A stretch of DNA of 31,060 nt from positions 1 to 31,060 of the IMG/VR virus record IMGVR_UViG_3300037537_000287; one strand, given 5' to 3'. This document shows, one piece after another, positions 24,119 through 29,014 of the stretch. Below the pieces are notes generated by a model. That model was given only the letters and a program-made list of their open reading frames with translations, did not search any database and had not been told where the DNA came from. The stretch comes from a virus. Made by a program: the position numbers and the translations under genes. Position 1 is the first letter of the stretch, and the number at the start of each line of letters is the position of its first letter.

Positions 24119-24146
24119 AATAAAAAATCCCTGCCCTTACTCTGCT

Positions 24147-24345
24147 CTCGAGCGGTTAATTGGAGCCCTATTTTAAAATCATTTCACCGCTCATCCCCTT
24201 TTTATTTCTCGAGAGTAAACACCGTTTAAACGTTAAACCCCTTGTTTAACTCGATATACTTGTTTATACTCTCATCCCTCAACGGAACACGGGGGACGCT
24301 TTTTGACATTCAAACCGGGTTTTCGAAACCTAATCTCTCTCGAGA
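24147..24345. promoter_or_regulatory. Three CTCGAG-cored palindromic sites
   Basis: CTCGAG occurs at 24147-24152, 24208-24213 and 24339-24344. Two copies extend to TCTCGAGA. They bracket the candidate promoter at 24242-24270 and the start region of the late operon, an arrangement expected for operators of a phage repressor or activator. Confidence 0.4.
24242..24270 (+). promoter_or_regulatory. Candidate rightward sigma70-like promoter
   Basis: TTGTTT (24242-24247), a 17-nt spacer and TATACT (24265-24270) give a good -10 and a half-matching -35 for the rightward operon. Transcription would begin near 24277. A GTTTAAAC site ends 11 bp upstream of the -35, and TCTCGAGA sites flank it. Confidence 0.45.
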
Positions 24346-24510
24346 ATAACTACCTCTTCCAAGGGCGCAAGGCAAGAGTTCGAAACCCACCCCGATGATG
24401 GGCGGTTCTCAGGTAAAGGACAATCGACAGACACAAAATTCAAGATTGACTCCGCAGGTGACCATCGGGTAGAAGTCCCACAAGATACGCAGTATAATAT
24501 GTGGTCTGCT

Positions 24511-24537
24511 GTGACATCAAATTATGGCTCCTATAAT
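24511..24537 (+). promoter_or_regulatory. Second candidate rightward promoter
   Basis: GTGACA (24511-24516) matches TTGACA at five positions, and a perfect TATAAT is at 24532-24537, but the 15-nt spacer is short. The -10 lies within CCTATAATATAGG. Another TATAAT at 24493-24498 lacks a -35. The start would be about 100 nt before the first tRNA-like module. Confidence 0.3.
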
Positions 24538-24641
24538 ATAGGGGCTTAGGGAGGTTGGTGGATTTGGTGATGCAGAATGTGGCTCAGGTCGTAAGACGTG
24601 ACGAGTAAGGGACTTTATCCTTAAAATTTGTATGTGTTTAT

Positions 24642-24726
24642 GGGGTAGTCAGGAGATGAATTCTGAATGCAAGTTTCCAATTTATTGTGACAGCATAAGG
24701 TGGCTCGAAACCACTCTACCCCACTA
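24642..24726 (+). ncRNA. tRNA-like structure 1 (full-size, degenerate)
   Basis: A 7-bp acceptor stem GGGGTAG/CTACCCC (24642-24648 with 24716-24722) is followed by a discriminator-like A and CTA. The T-arm has stem GGTGG/CCACT and loop CTCGAAA (24699-24715), abutting the acceptor as in a tRNA. The 50-nt remainder holds a D-arm-like hairpin TCAG/CTGA (24649-24666) and a weak ATGC/GCAT arm with an inner CAA-TTTA-TTG hairpin. No proper anticodon arm is seen, so I do not call a functional tRNA. It sits just before the SprT-like gene as the first of six such modules. Confidence 0.65.
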
Positions 24727-24781
24727 CGACAGTATGTCGTTTAAACAGTACCTTAAAACACACAAAAACAAGGAGTCAGAA
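24726..24781 (+). promoter_or_regulatory. Leader 1: hairpin plus CA-rich ribosome loading site
   Basis: A perfect hairpin ACGACA/TGTCGT with loop GTA (24726-24740) begins in the last base of CTA. GTTTAAAC (24739) starts in its 3' arm. An unpaired AAAACACACAAAAACAAGGAG leads to ATG 24782 (motif cited in two parts: AAAACACACA and AAAACAAGGAG). Same design as leaders 2-6. Confidence 0.7.
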
Positions 24782-25549
24782 ATGACCAAAAAAACAAAAA
24801 CACCTGCTGTTAAGCCGGTCAAAAAAGTGAAGAAAGTCAACCCCTTGAAAACTCAAATTCGTGAGAAGTGGTTAATGACATTCATCAAAGAGGCGCAGAA
24901 GACAATCTTTACACCTGCCGGAATCAAAGTTCCGCTGAAGAAGATTAAAATCACCTGTGGGTTTCCACCCAAGGGTGGCGCACGGTCGGTTGCAATTGGC
25001 GTTTGTTATCCCACTCATAAAGGGATGCCATATAATCAATTGTTTATCTCGCCAAAATTGGGCAAGAAAGACATGCCGGACTTATGCGATACAATCATCC
25101 ACGAAGTTTTACATGCTGTGGACAATTGTGTGCATGGACACAAAAAAGCGTTTGTGGCTATGGCTAAAGCCTGTCATCTCGAAGGCACACCATATAAAGG
25201 TCGCAAGGAATCTTTCAGGGCAACACGCCTCACGAAGAAAGGTAAAGCCATCGTGAACAAAATTGTCAAGAAAATTGGAACCTATCCGCATAAAGAATTC
25301 GTGCCATTTTGGACGAAGGATTCTACCCGGATGATTAAACTCCAATGCACTAACAACCATCCTTTGGAGCCACAGGTAGCACGGATGTCCCGTGCTCAAA
25401 TTTACCGTGGACTTCCAATGTGTGGAGTATGCGCTTTAATGGATGACGATTATGGTAACCCTACCATGAGTCCGATGTTCCCTGTACCAAATGGGAGAAA
25501 CCCTGAGTTCGATGCGGAAGAAATCAAACTACCGTTTGACTTGGATTAA
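24782..25549 (+). CDS. SprT-like zinc metalloprotease
   Basis: The start is ATG 24782 (255 residues) with AAGGAG just upstream; an earlier in-frame ATG at 24632 would run through the tRNA-like module and is rejected. HEVLH at residues 107-111, with further His at 118 and 120, gives the zinc site of the SprT/Spartan family. The N-terminus is very Lys-rich (about 1-22) and may bind DNA. The C-terminal region has CTNNH and CGVC cysteines that resemble the zinc ribbon of SprT proteins. Family members cleave DNA-bound proteins (Spartan), but phage members are uncharacterised. It is the first gene of the rightward operon, so it is probably expressed early; it could remove host proteins from DNA. 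That role is inference. Confidence 0.8.
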   Translation: MTKKTKTPAVKPVKKVKKVNPLKTQIREKWLMTFIKEAQKTIFTPAGIKVPLKKIKITCGFPPKGGARSVAIGVCYPTHKGMPYNQLFISPKLGKKDMPDLCDTIIHEVLHAVDNCVHGHKKAFVAMAKACHLEGTPYKGRKESFRATRLTKKGKAIVNKIVKKIGTYPHKEFVPFWTKDSTRMIKLQCTNNHPLEPQVARMSRAQIYRGLPMCGVCALMDDDYGNPTMSPMFPVPNGRNPEFDAEEIKLPFDLD

Positions 25550-25564
25550 GTAGCACGTCACAAC

Positions 25565-25609
25565 AGCCCTGAATGGTTAATGAGAGTTCGATTCTCTCGC
25601 AGGGCTCTA
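25565..25609 (+). ncRNA. tRNA-like structure 2 (mini, acceptor plus T-arm only)
   Basis: Acceptor-like stem AGCCCTG/CAGGGCT (25565-25571 with 25600-25606), a 10-nt linker, then a T-arm GAGAG/CTCTC with the canonical loop TTCGATT (25582-25598), one unpaired G, and CTA (25607-25609). D and anticodon arms are absent. The structure begins 16 nt after the protease stop and leads directly into leader 2. Confidence 0.75.
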
Positions 25610-25652
25610 CGGCAACTATGCCGTTTAAACACACACACAAAAGGAACACATT
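25609..25652 (+). promoter_or_regulatory. Leader 2: hairpin plus CA-rich ribosome loading site
   Basis: Perfect hairpin ACGGCA/TGCCGT with loop ACTA (25609-25624), GTTTAAAC at 25623, then a CACACACA stretch and AAAAGGAA before ATG 25653. Confidence 0.7.
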
Positions 25653-26012
25653 ATGAGAACACTTCATAATTTTGCCGACAACCGAGTTGGTGCATTAGTA
25701 GGTCTTACAAGACTTGTTGCAGATGAATTTGTAGCAAGAGTAGTTTCATCAGTTAAGGCTCGGAATGACATGGCTCTTCAGGACTATAACTTTGACTATG
25801 TTGCAACTCAGCATATAGTCAACGGTGACCTGAGAATATGTCACAATGACTCGCCCGGTTATAGCATAGAAGAGTACAGTTACTCAGGTGGAGCCGATGC
25901 GCCACCAATACATGGTGAATTGATAACCTTTTACCTGAAGTGCAACTTGGGTACAGACAAGAATGTAACATACTTCCTGTCTTCTTTGGAACACTACTCA
26001 GAAGTTAAGTAG
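25653..26012 (+). CDS. Hypothetical early protein
   Basis: The frame encodes 119 residues, with AAAAGGAA upstream of the ATG. The N-terminal half is helical (LVGLTRLVADEFVARVVSSV). The C-terminal half is mixed (LRICHNDSPGYSIEEYSYSG, LITFYLKCNLG). There is no membrane segment or known motif, and I do not recognise it. It has its own tRNA-like module on each side, suggesting it is released as a single-gene mRNA. Confidence 0.65.
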   Translation: MRTLHNFADNRVGALVGLTRLVADEFVARVVSSVKARNDMALQDYNFDYVATQHIVNGDLRICHNDSPGYSIEEYSYSGGADAPPIHGELITFYLKCNLGTDKNVTYFLSSLEHYSEVK

Positions 26013-26022
26013 GATTAGGTTA

Positions 26023-26070
26023 GCTGTGGACGGTCAAGTTATCCGGGTTCGATTCCCGGGCACAGCACTA
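26023..26070 (+). ncRNA. tRNA-like structure 3 (mini)
   Basis: Stem GCTGTG/CACAGC (26023-26028 with 26061-26066), a 14-nt linker, T-arm CCGGG/CCCGG with loop TTCGATT (26043-26059), extendable by a T-G pair, then A and CTA. The loop and closing sequence are indistinguishable from a bacterial tRNA T-arm, while the D and anticodon arms are missing. It starts 11 nt after the upstream stop. Confidence 0.75.
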
Positions 26071-26115
26071 CGGTCACAAGACCGTTTAAACACACAAACA
26101 AAAAGGTAAAGTAAA
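26070..26115 (+). promoter_or_regulatory. Leader 3: hairpin plus CA-rich ribosome loading site
   Basis: Perfect hairpin ACGGTC/GACCGT with loop ACAA (26070-26085), GTTTAAAC at 26084, then ACACACAAACAAAAAGG and ATG 26116. Confidence 0.7.
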
Positions 26116-26550
26116 ATGACACAAAACATAAACAATGTTGTACTTGTCGATTACAAAACAAAAAACCGAGTTGGGCACAAACGTGCTAAGGTTACATTAC
26201 TGAATGATGCATCTCTTGAAATCTCGCTACCAAATGGAGATTTATGTAGAGTATACTCGAGTGACGATGGTGAATACTGCTCAGTTGAAATAAGTTCATT
26301 CTCAAATAGTGAGATGACAGCACCTACGGTAGAAATGGAAGAATCATCCGTGACCTGCACTAAGTACGGGAAGGAAAAAGATGGTTTTTTAGTGAACCAA
26401 CGGAAGGAAATTGCCATTCGTAACGGGAAGGCATACTTCAACAGAACGACCGTTGAAATTACCGTCTCAGACAAGTTCTGCCCTGCGGAACAGCACAGGG
26501 ACTTAGACCCATCTATTGTACAACAATGTCTACCAAACGCTACAGCTTAA
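26116..26550 (+). CDS. Hypothetical early protein
   Basis: The frame encodes 144 residues, with AAAAAGG upstream of the ATG. It is beta-rich (NNVVLVDYKTKNRVGHKRAK, then LEISLPNGDLCRVYS) with polar linkers. Four cysteines are scattered without a zinc pattern. No family is recognised. It is flanked by modules 3 and 4. Confidence 0.6.
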   Translation: MTQNINNVVLVDYKTKNRVGHKRAKVTLLNDASLEISLPNGDLCRVYSSDDGEYCSVEISSFSNSEMTAPTVEMEESSVTCTKYGKEKDGFLVNQRKEIAIRNGKAYFNRTTVEITVSDKFCPAEQHRDLDPSIVQQCLPNATA

Positions 26551-26564
26551 GACCATAGCGTTTA

Positions 26565-26613
26565 AACGGGACAATATGAACTTTGACAGGCTCGAAACCT
26601 GTGTCCCGTTCTA
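26565..26613 (+). ncRNA. tRNA-like structure 4 (mini)
   Basis: 8-bp stem AACGGGAC/GTCCCGTT (26565-26572 with 26603-26610), a 13-nt linker, T-arm ACAGG/CCTGT with loop CTCGAAA (26586-26602), then CTA. A GTTTAAAC site (26560-26567) ends within the 5' side of the acceptor stem. It starts 15 nt after the upstream stop. Confidence 0.75.
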
Positions 26614-26657
26614 TGAGCACTCTGCTCATTAAAACACACAAACAAAGGATGGACAAA
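26613..26657 (+). promoter_or_regulatory. Leader 4: hairpin plus CA-rich ribosome loading site
   Basis: Perfect hairpin ATGAGC/GCTCAT with loop ACTCT (26613-26629), then TAAAACACACAAACAAAGGA before the start. The GTTTAAAC of other leaders is replaced here by ATTAAAAC. Confidence 0.7.
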
Positions 26658-26900
26658 ATGATAAAAAGACTATACAATGCAATGCTAAAATTGGTTGGTA
26701 AGCACTCAAACGTTCAAGCACCGAAAGGCGCAGAAATGCTAATTGCTAACCCGGTGGCTCCACCAAGATTGAGCCACATGAGTTTGAGTTCCGTAGAACA
26801 CTCAGACACTCGGCAGAACGCTAACCGAAGTAGTCGAATAGCCAAGAAACGTAAAGCCCTGAAAATTAGCAACGCCTCAAAGCGTTTAAACAGAGCATGA
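26658..26900 (+). CDS. Hypothetical small basic protein
   Basis: The start is placed at ATG 26658 (80 residues). The AAAGGA site is 3 nt from an ATG at 26649, too close, and about 9 nt from this one; a further upstream frame would run through the tRNA-like module. It has an amphipathic N-terminal helix (IKRLYNAMLKLVGKH), a polar middle and a Lys/Arg-rich C-terminus (SSRIAKKRKALKISNASKRL) suggesting nucleic acid binding. Its TGA overlaps the next ATG (ATGA). GTTTAAAC at 26884 is read as R-L-N-R. Confidence 0.6.
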   Translation: MIKRLYNAMLKLVGKHSNVQAPKGAEMLIANPVAPPRLSHMSLSSVEHSDTRQNANRSSRIAKKRKALKISNASKRLNRA

Positions 26901-27232
26901 GCGACCACATGGAAGTTCCTGATTATATGGATGGGATTGACATCCCCGTTGAAATTAATGGGGAGTGCAAGTTTATGAAAGACCTTGGCGAGAATAACCA
27001 TATGGGAGTTTATAACCTAATCTGCACTAAGCGAGACCTTAGCCTATTCATTAAGGGAATAACACCAAGCAAGGTGTTCAGGTTAAAGCACGTCAAACGT
27101 TACTTTGGAATTACAGGCAACGCCAAGGTGCTACACGCCAAACTTCGATACATTTACGAAACCGTATTCAGCCCCGAACAAACAAACGATGCAATCTTTG
27201 TCGGCGAGGAGAGTAATGAAATAGAAATGTAA
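26897..27232 (+). CDS. Hypothetical early protein
   Basis: The frame encodes 111 residues. It starts in the ATGA overlap with no Shine-Dalgarno of its own, so translation is probably coupled. The N-terminus is acidic and Met-rich. A central KGITPSKVFRLKHVKRYFGI and the following basic helix (NAKVLHAKLRYIYETVF) could contact nucleic acid. The C-terminus is acidic. Not recognised. Confidence 0.6.
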   Translation: MSDHMEVPDYMDGIDIPVEINGECKFMKDLGENNHMGVYNLICTKRDLSLFIKGITPSKVFRLKHVKRYFGITGNAKVLHAKLRYIYETVFSPEQTNDAIFVGEESNEIEM

Positions 27233-27237
27233 CACAT

Positions 27238-27283
27238 AACCCGGATTGGATTTTAACAGGTTCGATTCCTGTTCCGGGTTCTA
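27238..27283 (+). ncRNA. tRNA-like structure 5 (mini)
   Basis: Stem AACCCGG/CCGGGTT (27238-27244 with 27274-27280), an 11-nt linker, T-arm ACAGG/CCTGT with loop TTCGATT (27256-27272), extendable by one A-T pair, then CTA. It begins only 5 nt after the upstream stop codon. Confidence 0.75.
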
Positions 27284-27327
27284 TGGGCACAATGCCCATT
27301 ATAAACACACAAATAAGGAGAGTCGTT
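27283..27327 (+). promoter_or_regulatory. Leader 5: hairpin plus CA-rich ribosome loading site
   Basis: Perfect hairpin ATGGGC/GCCCAT with loop ACAAT (27283-27299), then TATAAACACACAAATAAGGAG and ATG 27328 (read here as TATAAACACACAA then ATAAGGAG). It lacks GTTTAAAC. Confidence 0.7.
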
Positions 27328-27540
27328 ATGGCTGAAGAAAAGAACACTAACACGTTCGAAATCGACCTAACCCCTTCATGGAAAACCGTGATGAAAGTTA
27401 TAACCATGCTCATAGAATCTAATTCTAAGGCGAGTATGTTTAAACAAGTTGGTCATTGCCAATGTTCTCCATTCCAATACATTAGTGATGAATTATCACA
27501 GGTAGGAAATATATTGGATAGGGAAAAAGCAGATGGTTAA
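27328..27540 (+). CDS. Hypothetical small protein
   Basis: The start is ATG 27328 (70 residues) with AAGGAG upstream; an earlier in-frame ATG at 27283 lies in the leader hairpin and is rejected. The sequence is polar with a central helix (WKTVMKVITMLIESNSKA) and two close cysteines (GHCQC). GTTTAAAC at 27438 is read as M-F-K-Q. It overlaps the next gene by 8 nt. No family is recognised. Confidence 0.6.
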   Translation: MAEEKNTNTFEIDLTPSWKTVMKVITMLIESNSKASMFKQVGHCQCSPFQYISDELSQVGNILDREKADG

Positions 27541-27850
27541 TTATCCGTGTGTGGAAACGAGAGTGAAGTTCGCTCTCCAATACGCCACGGATTGCCCTAA
27601 GTATATCGTCTTAAGGAACGGAAAGATTAAAGAAGTTCCAAGGTCGGTATCAGAAAGGGATAAGCGCAAGTGGTGGACTCCTGAACAGGAGCCATCTATG
27701 TTTGGGAAAACACTTGTGGATTGTGGTTTTCTTCAACAGATGTCAGGGAAAGGTAGCCCGTGGCGTTTTGTCAAACATTACTTTTGTCAAGGCACACGGG
27801 TATATCCATACCTATCTGAGAACATCATAACTACGGAGAAATTGCCATGA
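27533..27850 (+). CDS. Hypothetical basic protein
   Basis: The frame encodes 105 residues, with AGGG upstream of ATG 27533 inside the preceding gene. Tyr, Lys and Arg are frequent (SVSERDKRKWWTPEQEP), with a compact C-terminal region (GSPWRFVKHYFCQGTRVYPY). No recognisable domain. The ATGA overlap with the following gene indicates co-translation. Confidence 0.6.
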   Translation: MVNYPCVETRVKFALQYATDCPKYIVLRNGKIKEVPRSVSERDKRKWWTPEQEPSMFGKTLVDCGFLQQMSGKGSPWRFVKHYFCQGTRVYPYLSENIITTEKLP

Positions 27851-28056
27851 GTAAAGCAATCTCCATTGACGACTTGCCCGATGCAGTTCGTGGGCGCATC
27901 ATAAAAGATGCAGGAATTAAGCCCGTTAAACAACACAGCATGAAGATGGACGAAGTGCGGTCGAAGGCTATATTGGTTTTACAGCCAATAGCCGGGTTGG
28001 GAAAGTCAGATAGAAACCGGGTGTTGAAACACGCCCAAAGAATGAATGAACTCTAA
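27847..28056 (+). CDS. Hypothetical small helical protein
   Basis: The frame encodes 69 residues, with CGGAGAA upstream and ATGA coupling to the previous gene. A DLPDAVRGRIIKDAGIKP stretch and the C-terminal basic helix (SDRNRVLKHAQRMNEL) suggest a small DNA- or protein-binding helical domain. Not identified. The stop codon lies in the loop of a hairpin (28048-28064). Confidence 0.6.
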   Translation: MSKAISIDDLPDAVRGRIIKDAGIKPVKQHSMKMDEVRSKAILVLQPIAGLGKSDRNRVLKHAQRMNEL

Positions 28057-28064
28057 GTGAGTTC
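28048..28064 (+). promoter_or_regulatory. Hairpin spanning a stop codon
   Basis: GAACTC/GAGTTC, a perfect 6-bp stem with a 5-nt loop holding the TAA stop. A second arm pair ACAAGGG/CTCTTGT (28074-28080 with 28099-28105) follows. This gap has no tRNA-like module, unlike the other gaps of the operon. Confidence 0.4.
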
Positions 28065-28101
28065 TGTAAACAGACAAGGGTAGCAAAGGAGAGTCAATCT
28101 C

Positions 28102-28209
28102 TTGTTAAACAACATAACACTCACCTTTGAGCAGATTGTATTATGGCTCAAGGGTGAGTTTAATATCCGCAGAATGTGGAAAAGGATAGCCCTAATATGG
28201 ACGTTATAG
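28102..28209 (+). CDS. Candidate 35-residue leader peptide from TTG
   Basis: The frame starts at TTG 28102 with AAAGGAG 10 nt upstream and ends inside the start of the ribbon-helix-helix gene (13-nt overlap). The product has an amphipathic-hydrophobic pattern (LTFEQIVLWLKGEFNIRRMW). Nearly all of its middle is the 14-bp inverted repeat at 28119-28159, so it could be a regulatory leader peptide for the next gene. The evidence is the Shine-Dalgarno and the overlap only. Confidence 0.4.
   Translation: MLNNITLTFEQIVLWLKGEFNIRRMWKRIALIWTL
28119..28159 (+). promoter_or_regulatory. Long inverted repeat before the RHH-like gene
   Basis: ACTCACCTTTGAGC pairs with GCTCAAGGGTGAGT (28119-28132 and 28146-28159), 14 bp with a single T-G mismatch (a G-U wobble in RNA), around a 13-nt loop. 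It lies 37 nt before the ribbon-helix-helix gene and could be its DNA operator or an RNA attenuator. Confidence 0.55.
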
Positions 28210-28391
28210 ACCGTTACTCGTATAAGCCTAAGACTAAGTATGCCCGTGAAAAGGTAACTGATGTCAAGTTTATCAAAACGGAATTAACAGAAATGGATTG
28301 GAGACAACTCCGGTCTGTTTCGACCGCTAACGGAATTCCCGTACAGCGGTTAATAGGACAAGTGCTTAGGGATTTTATCCACAAGCTGTAG
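28197..28391 (+). CDS. Ribbon-helix-helix-like DNA-binding protein
   Basis: The start is ATG 28197 (64 residues) with AAAGGA upstream; an in-frame start at 28176 is less favourable. After a polar, basic N-terminus (1-20), residues 22-28 form a strand (DVKFIKT), 31-44 a helix and 47-62 a second helix (PVQRLIGQVLRDFI), the layout of RHH repressors of the Arc/CopG class. Such proteins bind palindromic operators as dimers. The adjacent long inverted repeat or the dispersed YGTTTAAACR palindrome are candidate targets, by inference only. Followed at once by a 14-bp palindrome (28391-28404) containing GTTTAAAC. Confidence 0.55.
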   Translation: MDVIDRYSYKPKTKYAREKVTDVKFIKTELTEMDWRQLRSVSTANGIPVQRLIGQVLRDFIHKL

Positions 28392-28404
28392 CCGTTTAAA
28401 CGGC
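28391..28404. repeat. Extended 14-bp form of the GTTTAAAC palindrome
   Basis: GCCGTTTAAACGGC is a perfect 14-bp palindrome starting at the last base of the RHH-like gene and ending 2 nt before tRNA-like structure 6. It is among the longest symmetric copies of the dispersed motif. Confidence 0.6.
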
Positions 28405-28406
28405 TT

Positions 28407-28483
28407 GGGTGTGTAGCAGGTATATTGGTGATTCAACAAGATTTATTGTCACCGTGTAGGTTCAAATCCTACCACACCCACAA
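28407..28483 (+). ncRNA. tRNA-like structure 6 (full-size, degenerate)
   Basis: 7-bp acceptor GGGTGTG/CACACCC (28407-28413 with 28473-28479), TA at positions equivalent to 8-9, T-arm GTAGG/CCTAC with loop TTCAAAT (28456-28472), then A and CAA. The total length of 73 nt is tRNA-sized. The middle folds best as one arm GGTGA/TCACC with an inner CAA/TTG pair rather than as D and anticodon arms, and no 7-nt anticodon loop is formed. Its inner segment shares ATTTATTGT with structure 1, suggesting common descent. Confidence 0.65.
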
Positions 28484-28484
28484 G

Positions 28485-28531
28485 ACGGGGCAACATTGCT
28501 CCGTTTAAACACACAAACAAAGGAGTGAGAT
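28485..28531 (+). promoter_or_regulatory. Leader 6: hairpin plus CA-rich ribosome loading site
   Basis: 8-bp hairpin ACGGGGCA/TGCTCCGT with one G-U pair and loop ACAT (28485-28504), GTTTAAAC at 28503, then ACACACAAACAAAGGAG and ATG 28532. Confidence 0.7.
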
Positions 28532-29014
28532 ATGCAACTCACAAAGACAATAACCTTCTCAGTTGAGACGGCTGAAATCTATTGCCTATTGCCTTACAAA
28601 AATGGGCATTGGGTATACCTTGCCAACATAGACGAACTCTGCGAGAATACCGTGATGGAATTCTTGGAGATGAACGTTGGAGATTGGTACTGCGGTCGAG
28701 CAGGAGGAACAGCCACAGGTGATTGGGCTATATGCTCAGGGATGGACACTAACGATGAAGATTCGTTCTTGAAACGACTACGGGATATGTTACACTTAAC
28801 ACTTACCGACCGTTTACAGGACAGATACCATGAAGAGTTATCGGGAATCAATAGTCTGTCATCGGAACCAAATCCTGACACCAAGGAATGCTACGAAACA
28901 AGCATGACCTGTTTAAACGGTATACAGGAATATTGTGAAGAGTTTAACCCCTTCGACAATAACGATGTCATGTTGCAATGGGAAGACGATGACCAAGAGT
29001 TAACGTCCTACTGA
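28532..29014 (+). CDS. Hypothetical acidic early protein
   Basis: The frame encodes 160 residues, with AAAGGAG upstream. It is acidic overall, with a beta-rich N-terminus (TFSVETAEIYCLLPY, HWVYLANIDELCE), a central WYCGRAGGTATGDWAICSG, and a Glu/Asp-rich C-terminus (FNPFDNNDVMLQWEDDDQE). Its acidity recalls phage inhibitors that mimic DNA, but nothing specific supports this. GTTTAAAC at 28911 is read as C-L-N-G. The stop overlaps the next start (TGATG). Confidence 0.6.
   Translation: MQLTKTITFSVETAEIYCLLPYKNGHWVYLANIDELCENTVMEFLEMNVGDWYCGRAGGTATGDWAICSGMDTNDEDSFLKRLRDMLHLTLTDRLQDRYHEELSGINSLSSEPNPDTKECYETSMTCLNGIQEYCEEFNPFDNNDVMLQWEDDDQELTSY

Follow-up and report, generated by a model that had tools for sequence, protein, structure and literature searches.

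In mitochondria, as reviewed in PMC4394434, transfer RNA (tRNA) folds lie between the genes of polycistronic RNAs with very short gaps, and the ribonucleases RNase P and RNase Z cut the transcript there. A similar layout is found in a viral DNA of 31,060 nucleotides (nt), IMG/VR record IMGVR_UViG_3300037537_000287, positions 1 to 31,060, which was analysed over its whole length and is called the window: six tRNA-like modules, M1 to M6, stand before genes of its rightward operon. Unlike the mitochondrial tRNAs, elements of this phage kind mostly have no anticodon and are not translation tRNAs, they occur in operons of bacterial viruses, a hairpin and a ribosome-binding site follow directly downstream, and their cleavage by RNase P and RNase Z is predicted. 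These shapes, which many unrelated bacterial viruses carry, probably mark where the tRNA-cutting enzymes of the host split the phage message into single-gene messages.

Other described systems share parts of this design. The tRNA-like domain of transfer-messenger RNA (tmRNA) combines an acceptor and a T-arm with a D-loop that has no stem, and lacks an anticodon arm, as do the phage elements; these differ in being ∼45 nt long and present in many copies, in having no tag reading frame or pseudoknots, and in usually not encoding CCA. Neither ARAGORN nor Rfam scans matched a tmRNA in the window, and a general Rfam scan, in which no dedicated Y RNA model was run, gave no match to bacterial Y RNA (YrlA). 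The substrates of bacterial RNase P beyond tRNA include tmRNA, 4.5S RNA, the 3′ tRNA-like structures of plant viruses and operon mRNAs, and on the phage side phage M3 RNA, the phage-derived C4 RNA and T4 gene 32 mRNA (PMC11143913). There too, tRNA-like RNAs, phage RNAs and operon mRNAs among them, are read by a tRNA-processing enzyme, but each stands singly, whereas the phage elements form arrays at gene after gene. Nearest in layout are the SAS/ESAS of cluster K mycobacteriophages, repeated inverted-repeat elements just before a subset of non-structural genes (PMC3203893); their primary sequence is conserved, unlike that of the phage elements. Identity with SAS/ESAS was rejected for phage TM4, where our model R2 found no match in the right half (30000-52797). 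No account of such arrays came up in a search of the open-access literature, subscription papers and preprints excluded, and an earlier report is possible.

The six operon sites (Table 1) were recovered by a geometric scan for a T-loop, a T-stem and a 7-nt acceptor with at least six of seven base pairs (bp), at the positions given in the original prediction apart from slight shifts in the starts of M2, M4 and M5. All six have a full 5-bp T-stem, a tRNA-type T-loop and the tRNA-typical G53-C61 closing pair; the acceptor is fully paired in M1, M4, M5 and M6 and has one mismatch each in M2 and M3. One further plus-strand site, at 262 and unrelated to the operon modules, also passes with a full T-stem, and the minus strand of the window has no such site. 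Sixty first-order Markov shuffles gave a mean of 0.48 sites (maximum 2), and 0.13 with a 7/7 acceptor against four in the window. The predicted order also stood in every module: acceptor, T-arm, discriminator, CTA (CAA in M6), hairpin, CA-rich leader, Shine-Dalgarno (SD) sequence, ATG. Minimum-energy folds recovered the acceptor and T-arm of all six, and in each the last A of CTA or CAA is the first paired base of the hairpin. The insert between acceptor and T-arm is 9-13 nt in M2-M5, three of which have a GG resembling the D-loop G18-G19, and 50 and 42 nt in M1 and M6. M2-M5 have neither a D arm nor an anticodon arm, and the inserts of M1 and M6 fold otherwise.

By tRNA-finding programs the modules are mostly invisible. 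ARAGORN called no tRNA in the window, and M6 alone exceeded the cut-off of the Rfam tRNA covariance model (30.7 bits against 29). Of the parts of a tRNA gene the modules have the 7-bp acceptor (with the mismatches noted for M2 and M3), the 5-bp T-stem with its T-loop and the G53-C61 pair; the D-arm and anticodon arm together are absent from the window modules. As in punctuated transcripts, the tRNA fold lies in intergenic gaps on the coding strand, and the minimal forms, having no anticodon arm, would not release a functional tRNA. The modules had been described as filling most intergenic gaps shortly after the preceding stop. M2 to M6 do begin 6-16 nt past it (16, 10, 15, 6 and 15 nt, respectively), whereas M1 follows a non-coding leader of about 500 nt with no gene directly upstream, and a sizeable operon gap at 28057-28175 is empty. 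About 400 nt of non-coding leader (24220-24640, between the leftward terminase operon and M1) look structured and have counterparts in relatives L005 and L010; they have no Rfam match, and divergence prevented their alignment with relatives.

The stems are maintained as pairs while their letters change. Across 18 minimal modules, many of which had been found by pairing, 93.5% of cells are paired, compared with 54.8% when the 3′ letters are shuffled and 38-51% when they are slid; the covariation score is 1.02 against 0.21, and none of 500 shuffles reaches it. A less biased set comprises mycobacteriophage elements anchored only on the linker motif, the T-loop and the discriminator-C. Its 22 non-redundant members, not fully independent because the phages Fowlmouth, Cuke and Indlulamithi are related, pair at 119 of 121 acceptor positions and 110 of 110 T-stem positions. 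With two acceptor registers and 5,000 shuffles of each, the observed pairing was 100% and 97%, the shuffled means 61% and 66%, and the maxima 93% and 91%. It is virtually certain that the modules are tRNA-like and that their structure is under selection.

Relatives of the window phage bear this out. Terminase relatives L005 (79%) and L010, L007 and L011 (76-78%) each carry a single module, which precedes the opening gene of the divergent operon, the M1-equivalent position being occupied in L005 and L010. A strict scan of L005-L011 missed this module, which came to light on reading the sequence; the apparent absence was a limit of the scan, since the M1 equivalent carries a variant T-loop, and the idea that these relatives have no modules was rejected. 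L293-L296 (62-76%), which a deeper search brought in, have one module or two apiece. Full modules precede operon genes in L005, L010 and L293-L296, where the stems are new in sequence and still paired: GGGGTAG/CTACCCC, GCCTAGG/CCTAGGC, CCCTCGA/TCGAGGG, GGGTCAA/CTGACCC and, with an A-T to G-C exchange between L295 and L296, AGGTAAT/CTTACCT and AGGTAGT/CCTACCT. The covariation first noted within one operon thus extends across phages, and the proposed search of related phages turned up compensatory changes instead of the disrupted stems that would have spoken against the prediction. The L010 contig also contains a partial T-arm element (L025, G003:C1:12539-12578) just before a terminator-like hairpin.

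Arrays are also found in cultured phages of Mycobacterium smegmatis, with an element in most gaps of a single operon. Mycobacterium phage Fowlmouth came up in a blastn search and led in turn to Cuke and Indlulamithi. Over 116 kb from six phage stretches, 38 matches to model R2 have E≤1, some of them partial; models R1 and R2 miss long-insert forms and some forms with a 6-bp acceptor. An element lies in 10 of 18 gaps of at least 60 nt in Fowlmouth, 11 of 16 in Cuke and 12 of 17 in Indlulamithi (one or two in each being a tRNA), and several of the remaining gaps of this size have variant forms by eye. The elements usually begin 5-12 nt past the upstream stop. The original prediction knew of no other phage operon organised in this way; these three phages and others carry the same layout, so it is not peculiar to the window. 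In the same genomes, the annotated starts of Fowlmouth gp47 (L378:5840), Indlulamithi gp53 (L380:10981) and Cuke gp52 (L381:6065) lie inside or just before an element and are probably too far upstream.

A pattern search also reached L017, a 51-kb contig unrelated to the window, which carries three modules. A homologous element stands before a different gene in its relative L019/G002, with the T-stem changed from GACGG/CCGTC to GAGGG/CCCTC. Minimal elements occur in L060, L062, L066, L071 and L095 among 80 contigs related to the L017 primase, and in L017-like contigs the same kind of site holds true tRNAs or tRNA-Leu-like elements without a regular anticodon arm. A scan of the L017-primase contigs with C[TA]A as a requirement gave eight sites, all of them on a single strand, and ten shuffled sets gave none. 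ARAGORN tRNAs overlap four of the eight; another three are minimal elements, and the last (L078) is tRNA-like. A second search returned 121 sites, 66 of them ARAGORN tRNAs and 55 not called by that program, the latter including minimal elements with the linker AATGGTT and a class derived from tRNA-Leu; because CTA and a start codon were search requirements, these rows are no evidence for either. In L148, two paralogues differ by a compensatory T-stem change. The matches in L018, by contrast with modules, proved to be ordinary tRNAs of a jumbo phage.

The L017 promoter-like motifs read as the Bacteroidota type, and the element occurs in a large phage family that probably infects that phylum, although the hosts of L017-type phages are uncertain because only six genome contigs matched, mostly from metagenome bins. 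The SD leaders of the window phage argue against a Bacteroidota host for it. In 296 genomes from the phylum of an Aureispira metagenome bin, R2 gave eight matches: six 3′ halves of tRNA-Ser/Leu and two minimal elements, one in what appears to be an early-region operon of a Mu-like prophage and the other on a contig of phage structural genes, where the acceptor directly follows a TAA stop and the A of CTA doubles as that of the next ATG. In the chromosomes of this set the elements are rare, and where examined they lie in phage DNA. R2 found nothing in 299 genomes from the phylum of G301, a null that shows little since the stricter filters also miss the elements of G301 itself. The crAss-like phage cr131_1, the saliva phage D_HF2_7 and mycobacteriophage Tiger have at least one element each, that of D_HF2_7 directly preceding an SD sequence and ATG. 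In L275 the element spans the entire gap between a stop codon and the next ATG.

Several observations adjoin these searches. Contigs L120, L122, L124 and L372-L374, binned as an Aliivibrio genome, have an L017-type phage primase and several minimal elements, and are probably phage contigs within that bin. A separate tRNA-Leu-derived element, AGTCAGG-TGGCGGAATTGGTAAACGC...ACAGGTTCGAATCCTGT-CCTGACT-A-CTA, variable in its middle and lacking a regular anticodon arm, recurs before phage genes in L139, L140, L152, L157, L159, L165, L167, L170, L172 and L229; a blastn search with a tRNA-Leu-like element as query returned only tRNA T-arms. In Cellulophaga phage Calle_1, two near-identical tRNA-Glu genes (L375:21686-21757 and 24139-24210) directly precede genes 38 and 43, and a tmRNA overlaps the annotated start of gene 47.

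What follows the discriminator bears on how the elements may be processed. With C not required and two acceptor registers allowed, a C follows the purine discriminator in 34 of 34 mycobacteriophage elements; the C75 position is mostly G, T or A. The trinucleotide CTA or CAA had been taken as part of the module, and it is present in all six. It is not specific to modules, however, because the tRNA genes of the jumbo phage and of the Aureispira bin mostly end likewise (in the bin, which seems to include phage contigs, C74 is present in 103 of 111 and CTA is the most frequent ending), so that it seems to be how a tRNA gene with no encoded CCA ordinarily ends. A CCA end inhibits the RNase Z cut, and elements without it therefore fit RNase Z. 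In the window clade, 13 of 14 modules have the first paired base of the hairpin at nt 2-3 past the discriminator; among mycobacteriophage modules, 16 of 25 have it at nt 4. As this spacing is near-fixed in both groups, the key cut is suggested to be that of RNase Z after the discriminator. In the L017-like contigs L060, L062 and L095 the hairpin adjoins the 5′ side of the element instead, an arrangement that would suit RNase P cleavage with a hairpin left at the 3′ end.

The layout and hairpin spacing fit tRNA punctuation, and we consider it rather probable that the modules act as minimal tRNA-like punctuation at which the host's RNase Z, RNase P or both cleave the transcript. Each element is predicted to fold like the half of a tRNA that comprises acceptor and T-arm, with a coaxial helix of ∼12 bp and the anticodon domain mostly missing, and the D-loop-like GG usual in the short linker could dock on the T-loop. 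Host tRNA-processing enzymes would cut the polycistronic transcript at each element. An RNase Z cut would leave the downstream message with one to three unpaired bases, the hairpin and the ribosome-binding site, the hairpin protecting the new 5′ end; the RNase P site would be the first acceptor base, just past the upstream stop codon. Were RNase Z to act alone, the upstream message would retain the tRNA-like fold as a protected 3′ end. The elements may in this way affect message stability or expression. The acceptor/T-arm part is what RNase P and RNase Z bind, and the anticodon arm is needed for translation. In favour of tRNA-end processing, the acceptor, T-arm, GG and C74 are kept and the anticodon arm is lost, and equivalent sites can hold a true tRNA. 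Bacterial RNase P tolerates extensive truncation of tRNA, according to PMC4919922.

Several points weigh against such cleavage. Works in the reference list of PMC4919922 indicate that E. coli-type bacterial RNase P depends on a contact with the 3′ CCA, which the elements mostly do not have. A structured 3′ trailer so near the cut could hinder RNase Z. An RNase P cut right after the stop would leave an unstructured upstream 3′ end unless a hairpin stood there, and only some phages have one. A folded intergenic element could also protect or insulate the message uncut. In this last sense fold and hairpin would shield RNA from exonucleases or separate the translation of neighbours, with no specific cleavage; hairpins do adjoin the element and any stable intergenic fold could serve. 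This leaves the specific acceptor/T-arm, T-loop, GG linker and C74, kept while stem sequences drift, unexplained, and we think it unlikely. Somewhat less likely again are regulatory or sequestering elements that bind a tRNA-binding host factor (EF-Tu, a synthetase, the CCA-adding enzyme or, with the element as a decoy, RNase P): the elbow fold is a general tRNA-protein contact and copies are many, but discriminator and acceptor vary freely within one phage, so that no single synthetase identity emerges, and near-fixed spacing abutting each gene suggests a role in cis.

Joints for recombination or mosaicism between small genes have been proposed for T4 promoter stem-loops, and integron attC sites are comparable. 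The homologous elements before different genes in related phages (L017 and L023) and the paired tRNA-Glu genes of Calle_1 would suit such shuffling; stem sequences that mostly differ within a genome nevertheless offer little homology for recombination, and selection for pairing, T-loop and C74 is left without a reason, making this quite improbable. That the elements are decayed, functionless tRNA genes is very improbable, for although true tRNAs, tRNA-Leu-like and minimal forms at equivalent places make descent from tRNA genes plausible, decay would break stems that are in fact near-perfectly paired with compensatory changes.

If punctuation by host RNases is true, an organising principle of mitochondrial transcripts extends to bacterial viruses, and its reduced form reveals what the processing enzymes need. 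Belief and doubt are evenly matched over a broader proposal: that anticodon-less mini-tRNAs are a widespread and hitherto undescribed class in tailed phages of several bacterial phyla and a general RNA-processing code, one cassette supplying a 3′ end and a hairpin-capped 5′ end and so yielding separately stable mRNAs. The elements would offer a cause for many gaps of 85-100 nt that stand unexplained in phage operons, would help to correct gene starts and may explain some odd tRNA or pseudo-tRNA calls in phages. The cassettes could serve as tools to split synthetic operons, and punctuation is directly testable in the cultured M. smegmatis phages.

Table 1. Modules and neighbouring features of the rightward operon in the window
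Feature	Coordinates	Strand	Details
M1 tRNA-like element	24642..24723	+	acceptor 24642-24648/24716-24722, 7/7 bp; 50-nt insert with two small hairpins
M1 T-arm	24699-24715	+	loop CTCGAAA; discriminator A 24723
M1 CTA and abutting hairpin	24724..24740	+	A-CGACA-GTA-TGTCG-T; pairing starts at nt 3 after discriminator
M2 minimal tRNA-like element	25566..25606	+	6/7 acceptor, linker ATGGTTAAT, T-loop TTCGATT; training member of models R1/R2
M2 CTA and abutting hairpin	25607..25624	+	from fold
M3 minimal tRNA-like element	26023..26067	+	6/7 acceptor, linker ACGGTCAAGTTAT, T-loop TTCGATT
M3 CTA and abutting hairpin	26068..26085	+	from fold
M4 minimal tRNA-like element	26566..26610	+	7/7 acceptor ACGGGAC/GTCCCGT, T-loop CTCGAAA
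M4 CTA and abutting hairpin	26611..26629	+	from fold
M5 minimal tRNA-like element	27239..27280	+	7/7 acceptor ACCCGGA/TCCGGGT, linker TTGGATTTTA, T-loop TTCGATT
M5 CTA and abutting hairpin	27281..27299	+	from fold
M6 long tRNA-like element	28407..28480	+	7/7 acceptor GGGTGTG/CACACCC, T-loop TTCAAAT
M6 insert	within 28407..28480	+	42 nt, no regular anticodon arm
M6 CAA and abutting hairpin	28481..28506	+	from fold
Palindrome AGCCGTTTAAACGGCT	28390..28405	+	directly 5′ of M6; also one GTTTAAAC site
Gene after M1, SprT-like protein	24782..25549	+	weak Pfam match
Gene after M2, no assigned function	25653..26012	+	
Gene after M3, no assigned function	26116..26550	+	
Gene after M4, no assigned function	26661..26900	+	
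Gene after M5, no assigned function	27328..27540	+	
Gene after M6, no assigned function	28532..29014	+	

The palindrome AGCCGTTTAAACGGCT is possibly the 3′ hairpin of the message upstream of M6. The 8-bp palindrome GTTTAAAC has zero occurrences in the terminase relatives L005-L011 and 28 sites in the window, from 1349 to 30722, in coding and non-coding DNA alike; a dispersed operator is one possible role, some other type of recognition site another. Several of the window modules are followed by GTTTAAAC downstream.

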